A DNA stretch of 64,000 nucleotides. Origin: Moorella sp. Hama-1. Its GTDB lineage: Bacteria; Bacillota; DSM-521; Neomoorellales; Neomoorellaceae. Under the pieces are notes generated by a model. The model had not been told where the DNA came from, made no database searches, and saw nothing but the letters and a program-made list of their open reading frames with translations. The stretch is from positions 1,670,501 to 1,734,500 of the forward strand of contig NZ_AP024620.1 of the NCBI RefSeq assembly GCF_023734095.1, given 5' to 3'. The translations under genes were made by a program, and so were the position numbers. Below are positions 16,466 to 35,290 of the stretch, piece after piece. Numbering within the stretch: position 1 is the first letter of the stretch; every line of letters begins with the position of its first letter.

Positions 16466-16729
16466 TTAAGGTATATCCCTTATATCCTTAAAGCAGGGCC
16501 CCTCCTTTACTGCCTGTACCCTTCTTTCCGGCTCAATGCCCCTCGCCCGGAGCAGGTACAGGGCCCGGGCGGTTTCAGCCGGGTCCAGTTCCAGGGCCAG
16601 GCCACAGAGGGAACTCAGTTCCCGGGGTACGGGGATCAACCTTCCCTTAAGGCCGGCCTCCTGGACCATTTTTTCCGCCCTGAGGGCATAAAAAGTGGAA
16701 GGAAAGGTCAAAAGGACCAGCTCAGGCAT
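16466..16729 (-). CDS. DUF3343 protein, putative Se/S carrier
   Basis: The 87-residue protein matches DUF3343 in form: a start with LLTFPSTFYALRAEKMVQEAG, then RLIPVPRELSSLCGLAL carrying the conserved cysteine that is a proposed sulfur/selenium carrier site. Its start overlaps the end of the desulfurase gene by 8 bases, so the two are co-translated. DUF3343 genes usually sit beside this desulfurase type in genomes using selenium, which fits the selenoprotein candidate at 19973-20515. Confidence 0.8.
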   Translation of the reverse strand: MPELVLLTFPSTFYALRAEKMVQEAGLKGRLIPVPRELSSLCGLALELDPAETARALYLLRARGIEPERRVQAVKEGPCFKDIRDIP

Positions 16730-17873
16730 TATGCATCACCCCCACCAGCTCTGTGATGGCCGTCAGGGTGGCATCGATGTCGGCAGTGGTATTAAAGAAA
16801 CCTGGGCTCAATCTTAAGGTGCCAGTCTGCAGGGTGCCAATGGTCCGGTGGGCCAGGGGAGCACAGTGCAGACCAGAACGGGTAACTAAATCGTAGTGCT
16901 CCGCCAGCCAGGCGCTAGCCTCGCCCGGGGAAAGGCCGCAGATATTTAGGGAGACCACCGGTACCCGCTCACCGGTGTTTAAGGGGCCATAAAGGGTTAC
17001 CCCCCGCAGGCGGCGCAATCCTTCCAGGAGCCGAGCCGTCAACTCCGTAGTATGGCGGCGGATATTATCCAGCCCCGTCTCCCGGATAAACCTGATCCCG
17101 GCCCCCAGGGCGGCGATGGCCGGGGCGTTGATGGTGCCGCTCTCGTACTTATCGGGCAGGATTTCTGGCTGGGTAAGGAGTTCGGACCGGCTGCCGGTAC
17201 CGCCAAAGATTAGGGGCCGTACGGTCTCGGGATAACGGATATAAAGCCCGCCGGTGCCGGGAGGTCCCAACAGACCCTTGTGGCCGGTGAAGGCCAGCAG
17301 GGTAACCCCGGCGGCCTCTACATCCACCGGTATCTCTCCGGCCGTCTGGGCTGTGTCCACCAGGTACTGGAGGTGATGCTGCCGGGCGATCTCCCCCACC
17401 TCGTTGACGGGCAGGAGGGTACCAATTACATTGGAGGCATGAGTCAAACAGATCAGCCTGGTCCGGGGGCCAATAGCCCTTTCCACATCACGTGGGTTGA
17501 GGCGGCCGTAGGGGTCGCAGTTAACAACAGTATACTCAATACCATTATCGTGAAGGGCGTACAGGGGCCGTGCTACGGCGTTATGCTCCAAGCTACTGAT
17601 TACCACGTGGTCGCCTGCTGCCAGCAGCCCCTGAAGGGCCAGGTTGAGGGCTTCGGTGGCATTGGCCGTGAAGATGACTTGCTCCGGTTCCCGGATGTTA
17701 AAAAAATCCGCCACTAGTTCCCTGGTCTCCAGGATCGCCCGGCCGGCATCCAGGGTGGCCCCGCCGGCGCCGCGGTTGACGCTGCCGCTCAAGTGACGCA
17801 GGTAGGCATCGTGGGTCTGGTAGACAACCTCCGGTTTGGGCCAGGAGGTGGCGGCATTATTGAGATAAATCAT
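16722..17873 (-). CDS. Cysteine desulfurase family protein (class V aminotransferase)
   Basis: A 383-residue PLP enzyme. YLNNAATSWPKP opens the fold, the PLP lysine is in LLAFTGHKGLLGPPGTGG, and the likely persulfide cysteine is in TRSGLHCAP. It should release sulfur (or selenium) from cysteine or selenocysteine as a persulfide, probably passed to the DUF3343 partner. ATG 17873 was chosen over the adjacent GTG. The ribosome site (GGGGAT) is weak. A hairpin CCCGGCC/GGCCGGG at 17896-17916 lies in the leader. Confidence 0.88.
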   Translation of the reverse strand: MIYLNNAATSWPKPEVVYQTHDAYLRHLSGSVNRGAGGATLDAGRAILETRELVADFFNIREPEQVIFTANATEALNLALQGLLAAGDHVVISSLEHNAVARPLYALHDNGIEYTVVNCDPYGRLNPRDVERAIGPRTRLICLTHASNVIGTLLPVNEVGEIARQHHLQYLVDTAQTAGEIPVDVEAAGVTLLAFTGHKGLLGPPGTGGLYIRYPETVRPLIFGGTGSRSELLTQPEILPDKYESGTINAPAIAALGAGIRFIRETGLDNIRRHTTELTARLLEGLRRLRGVTLYGPLNTGERVPVVSLNICGLSPGEASAWLAEHYDLVTRSGLHCAPLAHRTIGTLQTGTLRLSPGFFNTTADIDATLTAITELVGVMHNA

Positions 17874-18024
17874 CACCCGATCCCCAGCTTTCTCCCTCCC
17901 GGCCGGGGGCGGCCGGGATTTTTGTTCCCTGTATATTATTCTATTTTCTTTCTCCTTGACCTGTAGCCATAGTATGCCTTTTTGTTATAGTATGGCACAA
18001 CCTTCCCCCATCTTTGACCCGGTC

Positions 18025-18660: not shown

Positions 18661-19899
18661 TCAGGCCGCCAACTGCCTGATCCGGGCTTCAATAAGTTCC
18701 GGGGTCAAATTGTCCAGGTCCAGGACCTCGGTAACCTGGCCGTCCTGCATTAAAACCAGACAGGCATCCCCCTGAAGACCCAGGCGCAGGGCCATACTCT
18801 TACCTTTATAAACATCGATCTTGCTGAGTTTTACTTCCGGGTGCTTTTGCAGGATGCTCTCAACGGCGGTCATCATTTCCCGGCAGCGGGCCTCGGTGGG
18901 ATCGTAACAAAACACCAGCTGCGGCCCTTTAACCTGCCGGAACTCCCGGTCAAAGTACTCACTTTCGGCTATATAACGTTCGGCCATAAAGCCGGCCACG
19001 GCCCCATCACCAACGGCCGTGGCCACCTGGCGCAGGACTTTATCCCGCACATCGCCGGCGGCAAAGACCCCCGGGATGTTGGTCTCCATCTGCTCATTGG
19101 TGATAATGTAACCGCGTTCGTTTATATTGATGATATCGCGGAAGAGTTCGGTGTTGGGCAGGTAGCCGATAAAGAGGAAGCAGCCCTCAACCCTGACGGG
19201 TATTCTCGCTCCCGTCTTGACATTCTTCAAGATTACCGTGTCCAGGCGTTCGTCACCGGTAAACTCGTCAACCATGGTGTTCCAGATGAAGTGCAGCTTT
19301 TCATTCTGTCGCGCCTGTTCCTGGGCCACCTTGTTGGCGTCCATGATGCCCTCGTCGTGGATGACGGAGATATAAACCTTGCTGGCGAATTTGGTCAGGA
19401 AGATGGCTTCTTCAATGGCGGCGTCGCCGCTGCCGATGACCATTACTTCTTTGCCGGTGTAGTAGGCCGCATCACAGGTGGCACAGAAGGAGATGCCCTT
19501 GTCATAGAGAAACTTCTCCTCCCCCTTGGCCCCTGTCAGGCGCGGTTTACCGCCGGTGGCGATGACTACGGCTTTGGCGTGGTAATCGGTACGGAAGGTC
19601 CTGACGACCTTAGTTTCGCCCTCCAGGTCGACACCCTGGACGTCGGCCAGTTTAACCTTGACGTTGAACTTCTTAGCCTGGCGTTCGAATAGCTGCATTA
19701 AGCCCAAACCGCTGTTCCCCTCGGGGAAACCGGGGTAGTTTTCGATTTCGTTGGTATAGGTGGCCAGGCCGCCCGGCAGGGATTTTTCGATCATAATGGT
19801 TTTCAAGCGGGCGCGGCCGGCATAAATGGCGGCCGTCATCCCGGCGGCACCGCCGCCGATGACAACGACATCGTATTCCTCGATTTTCTTTTCCCGCAT
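18661..19899 (-). CDS. Thioredoxin reductase-like flavoprotein with C-terminal thioredoxin-fold domain
   Basis: Residues 1-310 are a thioredoxin reductase: FAD motif GGGAAG, redox-active FCATCDAA, NAD(P) motif GSGDAA, and the late FAAGDVR. About 95 further residues (LVFCYDPTEARC to the end) resemble a thioredoxin or glutaredoxin fold whose cysteines are spread as C-x7-C instead of CxxC. It is the last gene of the yeeE-tusA operon and could supply reducing power for persulfide or selenide handling. ATG 19899 follows AAAGGGG at better spacing than the GTG at 19908. Confidence 0.85.
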   Translation of the reverse strand: MREKKIEEYDVVVIGGGAAGMTAAIYAGRARLKTIMIEKSLPGGLATYTNEIENYPGFPEGNSGLGLMQLFERQAKKFNVKVKLADVQGVDLEGETKVVRTFRTDYHAKAVVIATGGKPRLTGAKGEEKFLYDKGISFCATCDAAYYTGKEVMVIGSGDAAIEEAIFLTKFASKVYISVIHDEGIMDANKVAQEQARQNEKLHFIWNTMVDEFTGDERLDTVILKNVKTGARIPVRVEGCFLFIGYLPNTELFRDIININERGYIITNEQMETNIPGVFAAGDVRDKVLRQVATAVGDGAVAGFMAERYIAESEYFDREFRQVKGPQLVFCYDPTEARCREMMTAVESILQKHPEVKLSKIDVYKGKSMALRLGLQGDACLVLMQDGQVTEVLDLDNLTPELIEARIRQLAA

Positions 19900-19972
19900 T
19901 CCTGGCACCCCTTTCCCTATAAGACGGGCAGCGGGGAAACCCCACTGCCATTATCATTTAGTTATATAAACC

Positions 19973-20515
19973 TTAGATAAGGTATTTGGTTAAAATCTTG
20001 GCTCCAAAGAAAGCGCCGACCAGCAGGAAGATGGCAAACACCCAACCGTGAAGCGACATCGAAGCCGTGCCGCTAAATAAAGCACCGATGTTTCAGCCAT
20101 AGGCAATCCTGGCGCCGTAACCCATCAACAACCCCCCGGCCACGGCCCCCACAACCTGCTTGTAGTTCTTGATCTTTTTGATGCGAAACTGGGAAGCCAG
20201 CAACGTGGCCAGGAGGGCTCCCAGGATAATACCCACGTCCAGGATAGAACCACCGTCGTTCAAGAAACCCCCGGCCAGCATTTTAGCGTTGGCCGGCGAT
20301 TGGTAGAAGGCCCACTTCTCTGGGTGGAAACCCAGAGCCTGGACAACCCAGGCACCCCAGTTGGCAAAGGCGGTGGTGATCCCCCAGGGCGCGCCGAAGG
20401 TGGCAAAGTGGACGACGTTCAGGACGCCCAGGAAAATACCCCCTAGCCAGTAGGGAAACGCATCCTTTAAGATGGCGTTCTTGAGCTTTAACGCCTCTTC
20501 CTGGTACCTGCTCAT
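19973..20515 (-). CDS. YeeE/YedE transporter C-terminal half, candidate selenoprotein (UGA as Sec)
   Basis: The reading frame runs from ATG 20515 to a TGA at 20093-20095 (codon 141) and continues in frame for 39 more codons to TAA at 19973. The segment around the TGA reads YGARIAYG-U-NIGALFSG, then SLHGW; other YeeE/YedE proteins have Cys at this spot (GCNIGA). The downstream residues keep the family pattern and a transmembrane helix, so this is not a chance extension. A SECIS-like hairpin starts 18 bases after the TGA. The product (180 residues) is the second half of a YeeE, whose first half is at 20932-21603. YeeE proteins import thiosulfate through conserved cysteines. Confidence 0.8.
20052..20074 (-). 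promoter_or_regulatory. SECIS-like hairpin for UGA recoding
   Basis: AGCGGCA pairs with TGTCGCT (one G-U) around a 9-base loop CGGCTTCGA whose 5' side contains GG. The apical loop lies about 25 bases after the UGA, inside the range for bacterial SECIS elements. It is inside the coding frame, as required in bacteria. Confidence 0.6.
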
Positions 20516-20569: not shown

Positions 20570-20797
20570 CTACTTGGTTTTCTCGATAATTACATCCCAG
20601 CGTCCTTCTTCGATTTCTTCCAGTTCTACGTTATACCCCTGCTTGCGCGCCCATTCCGGGACGTTCTTCATGGCGCAACTATGGTCAATCTCCACAATCA
20701 GGATATCCCCAACTTTTAACTCCTTCATTTTCTTCTCCGTGCGGATTAAAGGCACCGGGCAGGCTTCGCCCAGGGCATCCAGGGTATATTCGGCCAT
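20570..20797 (-). CDS. TusA-like sulfur/selenium carrier
   Basis: The 75-residue protein has the TusA fold with the active CPVP motif (LGEACPVPLIRTEKKMKEL), where the cysteine carries a persulfide. It lies between the two halves of a split YeeE transporter in one operon, which suggests that it receives sulfur (or selenium) from the transporter. GGAGG before ATG 20797 comes from the end of dispersed repeat copy B. Confidence 0.9.
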   Translation of the reverse strand: MAEYTLDALGEACPVPLIRTEKKMKELKVGDILIVEIDHSCAMKNVPEWARKQGYNVELEEIEEGRWDVIIEKTK

Positions 20798-20931: not shown

Positions 20932-21603
20932 TTAATCTGCCTTGCGGTACTCCCACCAGGTGGCCAGCCAGTACAGGCCGCCCAGGAGGGCCAGTTGTAA
21001 CAACAGGGCCAGGGGCCAACCCAGAACATTGGGCAAAAATACCGCCGGCGAGGATTTCATGGAAAAGCCCTGCCACCAGCCAAACTGGTAGGCACCCAGG
21101 GCCGAACCGGCGACAAAGAAGACCAGGGTGAGCATCAGCATGATAAAGCCTTCGCCGACCCGCATCAGGGTCCCCGAAGCGCAGCCGCCGGCAATAACCA
21201 TACCAACCCCGAATAAAATGGCGCCGATAACGGTATGGATACCCACCGGGCTGATGAAACCGGGAATGGGTTTACCGGCCATATAAGCGGAGAACTGGAT
21301 ACCGGCAAAGCCGACGGTGGCCACAGCAATAGCTATAATCACGGCCCGGGTTAAAGAGGTGCTGCCCGTCAGGACCGGGTCGCGCATGGATGCGGTAAAG
21401 CAAAAACGGGAGCGTTGCAAAACAAAGCCAAAGGCGATGCCGAAGATCCACTTGGCGGCCAGGTCGATTTTCAGGCTCCCCAGGAAAACGCCCAGGATGA
21501 TCACCAGGGCCAGGACCAGGAGGGCATAACCGAGCTGGCTCTTTTTTGGGGCTTTAGCTCGCGTACCTACCCGGGACCGGAGGGAAACCTCACTTTGTGC
21601 CAT
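20932..21603 (-). CDS. YeeE/YedE transporter N-terminal half
   Basis: A 223-residue membrane protein with about five hydrophobic segments. It carries the first two cysteine motifs of the family: RSRFCFTASMRD near residue 70 and AGGCASGTLMRVGEG near 145. The third conserved cysteine position is supplied by the separate downstream gene as the UGA codon. Together they add up to a normal YeeE (about 400 residues). ATG 21603 has GGAGG upstream. The operon also holds tusA and a trxB-like gene. Thiosulfate import is the known role of YeeE; selenium transport is possible. Confidence 0.82.
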   Translation of the reverse strand: MAQSEVSLRSRVGTRAKAPKKSQLGYALLVLALVIILGVFLGSLKIDLAAKWIFGIAFGFVLQRSRFCFTASMRDPVLTGSTSLTRAVIIAIAVATVGFAGIQFSAYMAGKPIPGFISPVGIHTVIGAILFGVGMVIAGGCASGTLMRVGEGFIMLMLTLVFFVAGSALGAYQFGWWQGFSMKSSPAVFLPNVLGWPLALLLQLALLGGLYWLATWWEYRKAD

Positions 21604-21707: not shown

Positions 21708-21866
21708 GGTAGCTTATATTGAACTGTATCCATAAAATCCGTATTCCAGCCAAAGGCCGGTTGAATCAGGCGTTCGGGCTAAATTGTCCGGTAACCATAT
21801 AGCCAAAACTTGCCTAACTTGTCGGTCGGTTACAGGTTCTGCACTTGCCACCGGGAGGGAACATCA

Positions 21867-22769
21867 ATTAACCTTAATAACCTGCGGGTTTTTGCCACCG
21901 TTGCTGAAACTGGTAGCCTCTCGGAGGCGGCCGAGCGCCTCTTCCTGACCCAGCCGGCCGTGACCCAGCAGATTAAACACCTGGAGAACCATTTTGCCAT
22001 CCAACTCCTGGAACGCACCAACCGGGGGGTGACCCTCACCGATGCCGGCGAGGTTTTAAGGGACTACGCGCGGCAAATAGTTTCCCTGTATGACGAGCTG
22101 GAAAGCAACCTGGAAAACCTGCGGGCTTCCGTCAGCGGTCACCTGACCGTCGGCGCTACCTCCACCATCGGCGGCTACGCTGTCCCCTGCAGTATCTGTA
22201 TATTTAAAGAGAAATTCCCGGAAGCCGTCTTAAAGCTCAAAGTAGCCAACCTTACCCAGATTAGCAATGACCTGAAGGAAGGGCAGATCGACATCGCCAT
22301 TATTGAAGGCCAGGATTTAAGTGGCCCCTTTATTAAGTGGGAGCTAGCCACCGACCGGCTGGTGGTCATCGCTCCCAATCGCAAGCCCTGGGCCGGCCGT
22401 ACCAGCATCAGTATAGAGGAATTGAAAATACAGCCCTTTATCATCAGGGAAGCCGGCTCGGGTACCCGCCAGGTTATCGAAGAGGCCCTGGCTTCTATCG
22501 GGATCGATTTATCCCAGCTTAACATCGTAGTTGAGCTGGCCAGCGTCGACTCCATCAAAGCCGCCGTTGAAGCCGGAGTGGGCATCTCAATTATGTCACG
22601 ACTGGCCCTGCGGAAGGAGCTGCATACCCGTACCCTGCTGGCCCTGGAACTCGAAGGCCTTTCCCTCGAGCAAAAAATATACCTGGCCTATAACCGCGAA
22701 AGAGTACAGACCAGGCTGGGCAAAGCCTTCATCAACTTCTTGCGTTCCCCGAACCGGGGGTTCTGTTAA
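21867..22769 (+). CDS. LysR-family regulator (CysB-like), possible ATT start
   Basis: The 301-residue protein has an N-terminal winged HTH (TGSLSEAAERLFLTQPAVTQQIKHLE) and a LysR substrate-binding domain. It is divergent from the yeeE-tusA operon and likely controls it in response to a sulfur signal. Family members start just before NLNNLRVFATVAE. Here that codon is ATT 21867, with GGGAGGG seven bases upstream. The nearest in-frame ATG is 21810 and has no good ribosome site. ATT starts are rare, so the exact start is uncertain. Confidence 0.85.
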   Translation: MNLNNLRVFATVAETGSLSEAAERLFLTQPAVTQQIKHLENHFAIQLLERTNRGVTLTDAGEVLRDYARQIVSLYDELESNLENLRASVSGHLTVGATSTIGGYAVPCSICIFKEKFPEAVLKLKVANLTQISNDLKEGQIDIAIIEGQDLSGPFIKWELATDRLVVIAPNRKPWAGRTSISIEELKIQPFIIREAGSGTRQVIEEALASIGIDLSQLNIVVELASVDSIKAAVEAGVGISIMSRLALRKELHTRTLLALELEGLSLEQKIYLAYNRERVQTRLGKAFINFLRSPNRGFC

Positions 22770-22997
22770 CTATTTCACCCGCCGCACAGATACTTGCCAG
22801 ATGCCTGTATCAATCTCCTTGACTGCCGTCTTATAACCCTTCCGCCGCATTTCATTACTAATAGTTATGCAGGCGCAACTATGATCGGTTTCCAGGATGA
22901 TGGCGTCGCCTATATCCAGTTCTTTGAGCTTTTCCCGGATCCTAATATTAGGCACCGGGCACATTTCACCCAGGGCGTCGATAAAATATTCAGCCAC
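22770..22997 (-). CDS. TusA-like sulfur/selenium carrier, second copy
   Basis: A 75-residue TusA paralogue with LGEMCPVPNIRIREKLKELDIGD. It is close in length and sequence to the copy at 20570. The start is GTG 22997 with GAGGTGA upstream. Its stop abuts the convergent lysR stop. It has a sigma-H-like promoter of its own. Confidence 0.88.
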   Translation of the reverse strand: MAEYFIDALGEMCPVPNIRIREKLKELDIGDAIILETDHSCACITISNEMRRKGYKTAVKEIDTGIWQVSVRRVK

Positions 22998-24347: not shown

Positions 24348-25130
24348 CTAATTATGTGCGACCGCTCCGCCGTTTCCTTCCCAGGCGATAATGGCAGCTC
24401 CCAGGGCGCCGGTAATCTGGGGTTCTGCCGGCACCATCACCTCTACTCCCAGTTCGGCCGCCAGGGCGCGGCGCAGGCCCTCGTTCTTCGCCCCGCCGCC
24501 GGTAAAAACCACCGTAGCCGGAGCAGTGTTTTTCAGCATGCTTTTTACCCGGCGGGCCACGGCCCGGTGCAGGCCGGCGACAATCTCTTCCCTGGCCGCC
24601 CCGCCGGCCAGGAGGCTAATGACCTCGGATTCGGCAAAGACGGTGCACATGCTGCTGATGTTGACCGGGTTAACATTCTTCGGCAAACTCCCCAGTTCGT
24701 CCACATCCATTCCCATAGCCGTGGCCATTACTTCCAGGAAGCGCCCGGTACCGGCGGCGCACTTGTCATTCATCACGAAATCAACTACTTTGCCTTGCTC
24801 ATTGACCGTTATCACTTTGGTGTCCTGACCGCCGATATCGATAATGGTCCCTGCCTTGCCGGTCAGGTAATTAATACCCCGCGCCTGGCAGGTAATCTCA
24901 GTTACAGCCTGGTCGATAAAGTTTAGGGCCACTCGCCCGTAGCCGGTGCCGACGATATAGGCCACCTCCCGGCGGCTTAAGCCCGCCTTATCCAGGATCT
25001 CGGCCAGGACTTCTGCGCCGGCCTCCCTGGGGCTCCAGCCGGTGGGCCGGATGGCATACACCTTTATCCGGCCGTCGAAAAGAACCGCTTTCGCCGAAGT
25101 AGAACCGACATCAATGCCAACTACTAACAA
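24348..25130 (-). CDS. 2-hydroxyacyl-CoA dehydratase-type activase (archerase)
   Basis: A 260-residue ATPase of the BadF/HgdC family: IDVGSTSAKAVLFDG phosphate motif, IDIGGQDTKVI, the cluster-binding cysteines in NDKCAAGTGRF and SSMCTVFAESE, and TGGGAKNEG. A dimer holding one 4Fe-4S cluster uses ATP to fire electrons into its partner reductase. It lies 97 bases downstream of the reductase gene. TTG 25130 is the likely start. Confidence 0.9.
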   Translation of the reverse strand: MLVVGIDVGSTSAKAVLFDGRIKVYAIRPTGWSPREAGAEVLAEILDKAGLSRREVAYIVGTGYGRVALNFIDQAVTEITCQARGINYLTGKAGTIIDIGGQDTKVITVNEQGKVVDFVMNDKCAAGTGRFLEVMATAMGMDVDELGSLPKNVNPVNISSMCTVFAESEVISLLAGGAAREEIVAGLHRAVARRVKSMLKNTAPATVVFTGGGAKNEGLRRALAAELGVEVMVPAEPQITGALGAAIIAWEGNGGAVAHN

Positions 25131-25226
25131 TACCCTGCACCCCGTTCAACCATCCTTTACCTTTGTTCCCGGCGTTATCCTTCACGCCGGCGATAGCCCG
25201 GCAGCGCCGCCAGGGCGTTGTCGCGG

Positions 25227-26504
25227 CTAGGAAGCGATCATTTCCAGGAAGGCCTCGATCCGCGTCTTGAGCTGGGCTACGTCTTCCTCGCTGTAGTCAC
25301 TTTCCAGGCGCAGCACCGGCACACCTGCCTCCTGGAGGGCCCTTTCCACCAGCCGCCCCTCGACGCCAAAGGGCTGGCAGAACTGGAGGGAGAAATAGAT
25401 CACCCCATCGGCTCTGGCATCCCTTACCAGGCGCAGGATATCCTCCACCCGGTCCTTGTTGGGTGTAAAGCAGGCGCAGTTAATGGCCGTCAGCCGCCGG
25501 GCCAAATCTTTCACCTGATCCTCTACCGTCCGGCCGTCTTCCGCCACCCGGCCGGCAAAATACCTGGTGCCGGTGCAGGTCTCCTCGCCGACGATTACCG
25601 CCCCGCTTGTCTCTACCAGGTGGTGTAATTTCCAGTAAGGTAGGGCCATGGGCGTCCCGGTAACCAGGATGCGCGGTGCCCCTTTCCTGGTGACGCCTTC
25701 GCCCCTGGCAATGCGATCCTCCAGCTCGTCGCAAAGACTGTTTACCTGTGCCGTAAAGCGTTCCGGGTCATCAAAGAAAGCAAGCTGGGAGATGAGCAGG
25801 GCGTCCTTACCGCTGATGGGAACGGGGTCGGCCCAGCGGGCCCGGTAGAGGCGCGCCAGGGCGTCCCGGCGGGCGTTGGCCATTTTAATCCCTGACGCCA
25901 GCCGGTCCGCGGTGATCTCCCGGCCGGAGCGGTGCTCGATCTCTTCCTTGAGGCGGTGAATCTCCCCCTCCCAGAGGGTCAGATCGGCCGCTCCTTTTTT
26001 CTGGGGTAGCTCCATAACGTAAGTCGGGACGTATTCGTTGAGGATTTCCCAGGTCTTCTTCTTGCCGTCGCAAGTAGTCTCGCCGATGAGAAAGTCGACG
26101 GCCTGGAAATAGGGGCAGATGCGATCCAGTTTAAAGCCCATAGCCGATTTAATCAGCGGGCACAGGTTACGGGGCAGTACCTGCTCGCCGGTGGGAACGG
26201 TAAACTGGGCCCCGCCGCAAAGGCCGATGCTGATGCCGTCCACGGCGAAGATAAGTTCTTCCGGGGCAAAGACGCAGAAGGTGCCGGCAACCATCCTTCC
26301 GGCCTTTTTCCCCGCCAAGATTTCCTGGATCCGGCCGCCGTGGGCCTCGGCCAGGGCATTGTCGAAATAAGCCATCCCGGCCGGCCGGTTTTCCTGCCGC
26401 AAGAAAACTTCACCAAAGGCCACCGGCAGGGCCCCCAGGAAAACGTCGTGTTTCTCCAGGTCCATATCCAGTTCGCGCCACATTTCCCGGTAAGTGTCGC
26501 TCAA
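25227..26504 (-). CDS. Double-cubane-cluster anaerobic reductase (HgdB/YjiM family)
   Basis: The 425-residue protein is a single-subunit member of the 2-hydroxyacyl-CoA dehydratase family. Cysteines lie in GLCGGAQF, PRNLCPL, RICPYF, GETTCDG, GEETCTGTRYF, TAINCACFTPN and SLQFCQPFG, enough for a double-cubane 8Fe-9S cluster. With one matching activase and no second dehydratase subunit, it fits the double-cubane reductases that drive low-potential reductions of small molecules. TTG 26504 has GGAGGAG nine bases upstream. The substrate is unknown. Confidence 0.82.
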   Translation of the reverse strand: MSDTYREMWRELDMDLEKHDVFLGALPVAFGEVFLRQENRPAGMAYFDNALAEAHGGRIQEILAGKKAGRMVAGTFCVFAPEELIFAVDGISIGLCGGAQFTVPTGEQVLPRNLCPLIKSAMGFKLDRICPYFQAVDFLIGETTCDGKKKTWEILNEYVPTYVMELPQKKGAADLTLWEGEIHRLKEEIEHRSGREITADRLASGIKMANARRDALARLYRARWADPVPISGKDALLISQLAFFDDPERFTAQVNSLCDELEDRIARGEGVTRKGAPRILVTGTPMALPYWKLHHLVETSGAVIVGEETCTGTRYFAGRVAEDGRTVEDQVKDLARRLTAINCACFTPNKDRVEDILRLVRDARADGVIYFSLQFCQPFGVEGRLVERALQEAGVPVLRLESDYSEEDVAQLKTRIEAFLEMIAS

Positions 26505-26507
26505 GGG

Positions 26508-26662
26508 GATCAACTCCTCCGAAATGAGATGTGTGAGATGGGAGGTGAGAGGTGGGATGCTCGTCGAAACTGGCTGCGCCAGTTTCAGATTAAAGCTTGC
26601 TCGCCTCTCATTTCTTCCCTTCGTTGGTGGCGGCCCGCCATCATGGGTGGCTCCTCCGTATT
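26508..26662 (-). repeat. Dispersed leader repeat, copy C
   Basis: A full-length copy. On the minus strand it runs from GGAGGAGCCACCCATG, past a GGCGGGCCGCC stem, GAAATGAGAGG, the inverted repeat AACTGGC-n5-GCCAGTT and the CACCTCC tract, to TTTCGGAGGAG, the reductase ribosome site. Confidence 0.75.
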
Positions 26663-26689: not shown

Positions 26690-26908
26690 TTAGCCCTCGC
26701 TCGTCAACACCAGCTTCCATTCGCCTGGGGTTGTTCTTTCTTCCGTTACTGCATAATTCCTGTTTTCGGCCAAGCGGGTGATATTCTCCCGTGCCGCCGG
26801 GGTGTCGCCGTGGACTTTGATCTCGGTAGCGCCGCGATCCATCACCGCCTTCACCTTCATGAGCGGCAACGGGCAACTGAGGCCGCGCACATCCACCCTT
26901 TCGCCCAT
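26690..26908 (-). CDS. TusA-like protein, YedF N-domain type
   Basis: The 72-residue product has VDVRGLSCPLPLMKVKAVM, the CPxP sulfur-carrier motif. It resembles the first domain of YedF but lacks the DsrE-like second domain. It is followed 16 bases upstream by a YedE-type transporter gene in the same operon, a pairing typical of selenium metabolism. Confidence 0.85.
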   Translation of the reverse strand: MGERVDVRGLSCPLPLMKVKAVMDRGATEIKVHGDTPAARENITRLAENRNYAVTEERTTPGEWKLVLTSEG

Positions 26909-26924: not shown

Positions 26925-27995
26925 TTACACTTCCCGGTAAACCAAACCTATGGCCCCGGTGATGATAATACCCAGTACCACGGCAACCTGCCCATAAAAG
27001 GTCGGGCCGGTAGGAGAACTGGCTAACATGAAGTTATGGGCCAGGGCGGCGCCCGCCACCATGCCGAAAACGGCCATGGCGGCGTCAGTGTCACCCTCCC
27101 CGGCCAGGATTAGTTGCCTTAAAGGACAGCCGCCAAGGAGTATGGCGCAAAGACCTACCAGGAAAAGGCCGAGGAAATTCCAGACAAAACTGGTGTGAGC
27201 AACAGGTTGGTTGAGAAAGCCCGGTTTAAACTGGCCGAGGATGATATTGAGGATGAGGGCTACCAGGAAAATCAGGCCATACCCTTTGAGCAGGTATGTA
27301 TCCCTGACCAGGAAAAAATCGCGAAAACCGCCGCTTAAACAGAGCCTGGTCCGCTGGGCCAGGAACCCACCGGCAAGACCGGCCAGTAGGGCTAATAATA
27401 CCGGGGCGTGTAAGGAACCCGGTGGCGCTTGACTGAAGAAAAGGGGGCCGCCGGCCTTGACATCGAAAACAGGTTTTATAACTAACAGCAATAATAATCC
27501 TACGGAAACTAGCGGCAGTACGTAACCTCCCGCCCGAAACTTACTTACGGAGGACCGCCCCAGGTTAAAACCACGCTTCAGAAACTGGAGGCCGGCCGCT
27601 ACGCCGGCTATAAAGCCTGCCAGCCCCACCAGGGCGTTCAGGTCCCCGCCTGCCAGGCGCAAAATCCCCCGCAAGGGGCAACCCAGGAAAACGAGAGCGC
27701 CGATCATCATCAGGGCTCCCAGGACAAAGCGGACCAGGGGTGCAGACCCCTCGCGGACGCGAAACTCCCCGGCCGCCAACGCAGTCACAAAGGCACCCAA
27801 CACCAGGCCGCTAATTTCCGGCCGGATGTACTGGACGTTGGCCGCCCGGTGCAGGCCAAGGGCACCGGTAATATCGCGGATAAAGCAGGCAATGCAGTAA
27901 CCCATGTTGCCGGGGTTGCCCAGTTTGACCAGCAGGGCGCCAAAAAGACCGATGGTCGCCCCGGTAAGGATAATCCAGGCGTTTTGATTCTTCAT
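26925..27995 (-). CDS. YedE-type membrane transporter (selenium-metabolism type)
   Basis: A full two-repeat YedE of 356 residues with about 10-11 hydrophobic segments. Each half carries a GCPLR motif (FLGCPLRGILRLAGGD near 110 and LLGGCPLRQLILAGEGD near 300). The GCPxR form distinguishes the selenium-linked YedE group from YeeE. It is co-transcribed with a TusA-like gene and lies upstream of the double-cubane reductase genes. ATG 27995 was chosen, with AAGGAGG upstream. Selenium uptake or export is inference. Confidence 0.82.
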   Translation of the reverse strand: MKNQNAWIILTGATIGLFGALLVKLGNPGNMGYCIACFIRDITGALGLHRAANVQYIRPEISGLVLGAFVTALAAGEFRVREGSAPLVRFVLGALMMIGALVFLGCPLRGILRLAGGDLNALVGLAGFIAGVAAGLQFLKRGFNLGRSSVSKFRAGGYVLPLVSVGLLLLLVIKPVFDVKAGGPLFFSQAPPGSLHAPVLLALLAGLAGGFLAQRTRLCLSGGFRDFFLVRDTYLLKGYGLIFLVALILNIILGQFKPGFLNQPVAHTSFVWNFLGLFLVGLCAILLGGCPLRQLILAGEGDTDAAMAVFGMVAGAALAHNFMLASSPTGPTFYGQVAVVLGIIITGAIGLVYREV

Positions 27996-28124
27996 TGGCA
28001 ATAGTTCCTCCTTTTCTGCAAGGTTCCTTAAACACCAGTTCTCACATCCACGCAGGAAACATTAAAACTCACCCTGGGGGTATGGTGCTTTCCCTGCCGG
28101 GTTTCAGCCTCTGCATCTACATCT

Positions 28125-34642: not shown

Positions 34643-35290
34643 TTAGCTTCTGAGCTTAAGCACGGCGTCCTCGGCCGCATTCGTAACTTGATAGGCGATA
34701 GGCGAAGCGGTAAGGGCCGGGTGGGTCCCTACCTGCATGGTTTCCAGCTCGTCGGCCCGCATCTTGTGCTGCACGGCAGCCGCCAGCAGGTTGGTGAGCT
34801 CACCTACCGCAGTACCGCCGTAAGCCTGCCCGCCTATGATTACACCCGTATCTTTAGTAAAGATCAACTTTACGCCCAGCTCTCTGGTCCCCGGCATACT
34901 CCCCGGATGCCTGTCAGGCGCCTTGGCGGTACCGGTTACGACCTCAATACCCGCTTCCCGGGCCGCTCTTTCCGTCAGGCCTACCGACCCCAGGGCCAGG
35001 TCGCCGACAATTGTTGAAAACACTCCTACCGCCGCCCCCCTGGCCCGCCTGAGGCCGAACAGATTGGCCCCTGCCACCCGGGCTTCATGGGTGGCTACGG
35101 AAGCCAGTTTGATGAGAGACGGCCCGTGACCGAAAAACGAGCTTTTTTCGGCGCAATCGCCAATGGCGAAGATACTGGCGTCACTGGTGCGCATATAATC
35201 ATCGACCGTAAGGGATGCCGCAGGGCACCAAAACCTGATATCATGCAAATGGGCGGCACCTTTTAGACCAATTTTCCTGGCATTAGTTAA
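34643..35290 (-). pseudogene. CoA-disulfide reductase/NADH oxidase-like, C-terminal remnant
   Basis: About 215 residues of the C-terminal half remain: DDYMRTSDASIFAIGDCAE, the FAD-binding stretch and dimerisation domain ending TNAAEDAVLKLRS. The N-terminal FAD and NAD domains are missing. The frame enters through TNARKIGLKGAAHLHD with no start codon of its own. A related intact protein is at 48148-49380. Confidence 0.75.

Follow-up and report, generated by a model that had tools for sequence, protein, structure and literature searches.

Moorella sp. Hama-1, a thermophilic anaerobe, carries a YeeE/YedE-type transporter gene that is split in two, and one half is crossed by an in-frame UGA. Is this codon read as selenocysteine (Sec), and if so, what would a selenol do inside a transporter? 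The window analyzed here, meaning the whole 64,000-nucleotide stretch of DNA (G000:C1:1670501-1734500), belongs to a 3.32 Mb genome whose relatives are Moorella species.

An in-frame UGA in one half of a split transporter

The gene in question, yeeE_C (19973–20515, minus strand), codes for the C-terminal half of a YeeE/YedE transporter; with the UGA counted as Sec (U141), the product has 180 amino acids. The N-terminal half is encoded by yeeE_N (20932–21603, minus strand), and both halves score above the gathering score of the Sulf_transp family PF04143 (116.8 and 101.4 bits versus 27). The UGA is codon 141 of yeeE_C (20095–20093, minus strand) in the context GYGARIAYG-U-NIGALFSG, and 39 sense codons follow it before a TAA at 19975–19973. 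The preliminary description had placed the UGA at the conserved cysteine of a GCNIGA motif, with 39 codons of family sequence beyond it and a hairpin starting 18 bases downstream. All three features are present: intact homologues align a cysteine to this position, the match to Sulf_transp (residues 6–169, E 1.9e-33) runs unbroken across the UGA, and the hairpin lies at 20074–20052.

These features have to be read against their background rates. In the window, at least 39 open codons follow 235 of 1452 TGA stops, and 22 of 60 random TGAs are followed by a hairpin that falls inside the published limits for bacterial SECIS elements (bSECIS). Because long open stretches and hairpins are both common by chance, neither is evidence on its own, and the case rests on comparison.

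Conservation of the codon and of the downstream hairpin

TGA is found at the identical codon in ten genomes, six from the same family (G000, G003, G004, G006, G013 and G017) and four from another family (G098, G133, G166 and G240). In all intact homologues inspected, close and distant, the same column holds TGC or TGT and never a tryptophan codon, which answers the proposed alignment with Cys homologues. The sole other codon among the non-Sec homologues inspected is a TAC in a broken Cys-form YeeE copy (G013:C21, L025/L034), found in a genome that also keeps the Sec form. The preliminary description held that homologues ending at the same UGA would speak against it; among those inspected none do so, and the terminal stop itself differs among the Sec genomes, being TAA or TAG. 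Furthermore, dN is far below dS on both sides of the UGA (for example, 0.107/1.358 before and 0.114/1.314 after), a pattern indicating that selection restrains amino-acid change before and after this codon. One weak match, a distant short Sulf_transp-like gene (L206, G357:C1:2383000-2386000), was dropped, as its in-frame TGA lies away from the conserved cysteine.

The putative SECIS element is a 23-nt hairpin (20052–20074, minus strand) of 9 bp with one bulge and the loop GCUU. Folding places it within the limits given for bSECIS elements (PMC13188914), with a 4-nt loop that starts with G, a spacing of 27 nt from the UGA to the apical loop and a free energy of about −10 kcal/mol. The folding check called for in the preliminary description thus succeeded as to the presence and form of the hairpin, but its stability is unremarkable: the free-energy z-score is −2.8 for a 25-nt core and about 0, which is not significant, for 62 nt. 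An Rfam search returned nothing relevant. Conservation is more telling. Among the aligned Sec sequences the hairpin is invariant but for one loop base, at roughly 67–70% protein identity between two families. At codons +6 to +15, 7 of 8 degenerate sites of invariant residues are identical, whereas ahead of the UGA 7 of 74 are; comparing codons +5 to +15 with the rest gives a Fisher p of about 2e-5. The hairpin codons are thus almost frozen even at synonymous sites. The hairpin varies too little for covariation to speak for or against its pairing.

The machinery for Sec insertion, on which the preliminary description had made its claim depend, is in place. The window genome contains selB, selD and the tRNA-Sec gene selC, together with a recognizable selA-like ORF adjoining selB (L159). 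Its genes for SelD and for the alpha subunit of formate dehydrogenase (Fdh) each carry one UGA themselves. SelB is encoded in all same-family genomes except the 58%-complete G009, and in 10 of 10 genomes with the Sec form.

Could the UGA be something other than a Sec codon? For most genes UGA does mean stop, and long open stretches past stops are common in the window, so one might picture a 140-residue product or a decaying gene. Such a stop would have to coexist with a low dN/dS beyond it, with frozen synonymous sites and with a codon that ten genomes share although their terminal stops differ, and we regard it as very improbable. Least probable of all is SelB-independent read-through as tryptophan or cysteine, for which no supporting evidence was found; the cysteine, never tryptophan, in the aligned column, the conserved hairpin and the presence of SelB in every Sec-form genome all argue against it. 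Judged from these comparisons, the UGA at 20093–20095 is very probably a genuine Sec insertion site.

In a tree of the concatenated cassette, all Sec forms fall in one clade (support 100), which includes the Cys forms of G350, G309, G263 and G057 as well. G350, a close relative with TGC at the codon, retains the hairpin apart from a single TCG-to-TCC change, which loses the C-G pair closing its apical part; in G309, a Cys form whose genome is without selB, the hairpin is decayed. The simplest reading would be that Sec was gained once and that Cys came back several times, the G350 hairpin being a remnant. Since support within the clade is moderate (73–79), we infer this order of gain and loss rather than observe it.

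The putative sulfur path and the gene cassette

Residues 92–175 of yeeE_C align ungapped to residues 244–327 of the S. thermophila YeeE (PDB 6leo and 8j4c, E about 2e-11). U141 thereby falls at C293, which is reported as the first cysteine of the relay in that protein. The suggestion that the replaced cysteine lines the YeeE relay path is therefore borne out by the alignment. The equivalents of the other two relay cysteines, C22 and C91, lie in yeeE_N (Sulf_transp at residues 1–152; 6leo, E 1.9e-15), so that all three relay positions are accounted for. AlphaFold models the isolated yeeE_C half with low confidence (mean pLDDT 60). Against the TsuA equivalogs NF052577 and NF041049 the halves score 60.4 and 76.6 bits, below the cut-off of 400, although the split itself lowers such scores. 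With the seleno_YedE model TIGR04112 (cut-off 200 bits) yeeE_N reaches 42 bits and yeeE_C has no match. The best NCBIfam model, YedE/FdhT of selenium metabolism (NF033796), is far below its cut-off for both halves.

As noted in the preliminary description, the transporter has TusA and thioredoxin reductase-like neighbors, and both are conserved in the cassette. Between the two halves lies tusA1 (20570–20797, minus strand), a TusA/YeeD-like sulfur carrier with a CPVP motif (Pfam TusA, E 3.2e-24). Downstream is trxR (18661–19908, minus strand), a thioredoxin reductase-like protein with a CATC motif and a degenerate C-terminal thioredoxin-like domain (Pfam Thioredoxin at 315–394), whose TIGR01292 score of 343.6 is barely above the cut-off of 343.45. 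A divergent LysR regulator (21867–22769, plus strand) is of the selenium-metabolism type (NF040786, 265.3 bits, cut-off 250). Its start is probably a rare ATT at 21867, 7 bases past GGGAGGG; the nearest listed start, a TTG at 21810, would add 19 residues (21810–21869, plus strand). It is followed by tusA2 (22770–22997, minus strand), encoding a second TusA-like protein (E 2.8e-14) that adjoins the LysR gene in close relatives. The order LysR (divergent), yeeE_N, tusA, yeeE_C, trxR is kept in most Sec and Cys loci, while G263 and G057 are without tusA1 and trxR. The LysR proteins of L188, L189, L190 and L196 also pass the NF040786 cut-off; those of more distant Cys cassettes fall below it.

The surrounding region is rich in genes of selenium metabolism. 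A seleno_YedE putative selenium transporter (26925–28001, minus strand; TIGR04112, 487 bits, cut-off 200) stands beside a YedF-N/TusA-like protein (26690–26908, minus strand; TusA E 8.1e-17, best NCBIfam match YedF, below cut-off). On the other side of the cassette are a Se/S carrier of the DUF3343 type (16466–16729, minus strand; PF11823, E 5.1e-21) and a cysteine desulfurase/selenocysteine lyase family enzyme (16722–17876, minus strand) that scores 465 bits on TIGR01977, over the cut-off, and below cut-off on the SclA model. Seleno_YedE, the Se/S carrier and the Sec-lyase family enzyme correspond to a previously described selenium gene set (Lin et al., 2015; PMC5322559). Adjoining the YedF/YedE pair are an acyl-CoA dehydratase-type activase and a double-cubane-cluster reductase (24348–26513, minus strand), an arrangement reported in selenium gene clusters. 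Elsewhere in the window, a pyridine nucleotide-disulfide oxidoreductase remnant (34643–35248, minus strand) comprises the end of an NAD(P)/FAD domain and a dimerization domain, with no intact upstream part.

In a hand count, about 62 genomes gave matches stronger than about 1e-38, and about 9 of these genomes are without selD; selenium is therefore not a requirement of the cassette itself. The cassette is commoner in genomes with selD (p about 2e-4), an association in which lifestyle and gaps in the hand counting are confounders. Two genomes, G004 and G006, each carry both a split Sec form and a fused Cys form.

Function, rival readings and relation to known systems

We propose that SelB decodes the UGA at 20093–20095 as Sec through the hairpin at 20052–20074, and that the resulting 180-residue YeeE_C and YeeE_N would together make up a single YeeE-type channel. 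The U141 selenol would replace the outermost of the three relay cysteines and catch incoming sulfane sulfur, as thiosulfate or a similar anion. The sulfur would then pass along the two YeeE_N cysteines to TusA1, and the TrxR-like enzyme would supply the electrons that reset the carrier. Direct reduction of the Sec by TrxR is doubtful, since TrxR is expected in the cytoplasm and the C293 position is at the entrance of the path. We give this proposal as a whole a probability of roughly 0.7. The recoding signature, the SECIS constraint, the Sec machinery, the position in the fold and the conserved cassette are read from sequence; we infer the assembly of the halves, the substrate, the direction of transport and what TrxR does. 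Homology with YeeE-YeeD makes a sulfur relay the likeliest action, and a sulfur substrate is somewhat favored.

The regulator and the neighborhood hint at selenium metabolism, and the same selenoprotein might instead move a selenium compound in the service of Sec synthesis, or export excess selenium. The divergent LysR does pass the LysR_Sec_metab cut-off in the Sec and near-Cys forms, the Lin et al. gene set is at hand, and the top NCBIfam model, distant as it is, belongs to selenium metabolism. Against this reading, Cys-form cassettes are also found where selD or selB is missing, a dedicated selenium transporter is not known, and deletion of YedE in M. maripaludis caused no clear uptake defect; we consider it rather unlikely. 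The UGA might also act as a switch set by selenium status, with translation stopping at the UGA and the channel left incomplete when selenium is low, the channel being made when it is present, and Sec and Cys copies swapped under the selenium-type LysR as in Methanococcus. The paired forms of G004 and G006 fit such a switch, as does the LysR beside the G004 Cys copy, which at 237.7 on NF040786 is just under the cut-off. Many genomes carry only one of the two forms, though, and we hold the switch to be a little less likely still than selenium transport.

How does the proposed sulfur-relaying selenoprotein compare with known systems? The S. thermophila YeeE (TsuA)-YeeD system (PDB 6leo, 8j4c and 8k1r) shares the alignment of both halves, the three relay positions and a TusA-like partner. 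That system is a single Cys-containing chain whose thiosulfate uptake has been measured; here Sec occupies the C293 position in one of two chains with a putative transport function, accompanied by TrxR and LysR. PmpA/PmpB are likewise split YeeE halves proposed to pair, but are shorter, without the central helix and with Cys only; a separate adjacent pair of short Sulf_transp genes is present in the window genome (C1:2698117-2699195). The YedE selenium transporter (TIGR04112) and YedE/FdhT (NF033796) belong to the same superfamily, and the window has a true TIGR04112 member at a distance of 6 kb, but yeeE_C and yeeE_N are far below both cut-offs. The Sec split and Cys fused pairs of G004 and G006 recall the Methanococcus Sec/Cys pairs under HrsM control.

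A YeeE/YedE thiosulfate transporter family selenoprotein, WP_012471001.1, with the motif GUxSG is listed in reviews from 2022 and 2026 (PMC9312934; PMC13188914). Like yeeE_C, it belongs to PF04143 and has a single Sec at a conserved cysteine; compared by listed motif alone, it differs from the GUNIG found here in a separate C-terminal half. The later review assigns proteins to separate subfamilies when their Sec position or motif differs (PMC13188914), and since GUNIG does not fit GUxSG, yeeE_C is counted as a variant of an already listed selenoprotein family. The 2006 list of M. thermoacetica selenoproteins (SelD, two FdhA, HdrA, FrhD and a glutaredoxin) does not include yeeE_C, YeeE is absent from the deep-Sep paper, and we found no paper in the open-licence literature describing a GUNIG YeeE selenoprotein. 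What is new is thus the Sec position, a split cassette that comes with a selenium-type LysR, and Sec/Cys exchanges that can be traced, while the selenoprotein family is not. Of the preliminary description, Sec in a split YeeE half stands, given the UGA/Cys alignment and the machinery; the notion of a new kind of selenium-dependent sulfur import is not supported as worded, given the listed family, the selenium-type LysR and the Cys cassettes in genomes without selD.

Most known selenoproteins are soluble redox enzymes. As a more speculative and tentative idea, a selenol in the transport path may bind its cargo covalently as it crosses the membrane, through a selenenyl-sulfur or selenenyl-selenium intermediate. 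Under the same idea, a selenium-sensing LysR could let selenium supply turn the system on or off, with Cys copies as a reserve. A clade with Sec/Cys exchange and a remnant SECIS is useful for the study of Sec gain and loss. Furthermore, Sec on the route through a transporter whose Cys relatives have solved structures directly raises the question of whether YeeE proteins bind their cargo covalently, a question made approachable because selenium alters nucleophilicity and is visible by mass and by X-ray.
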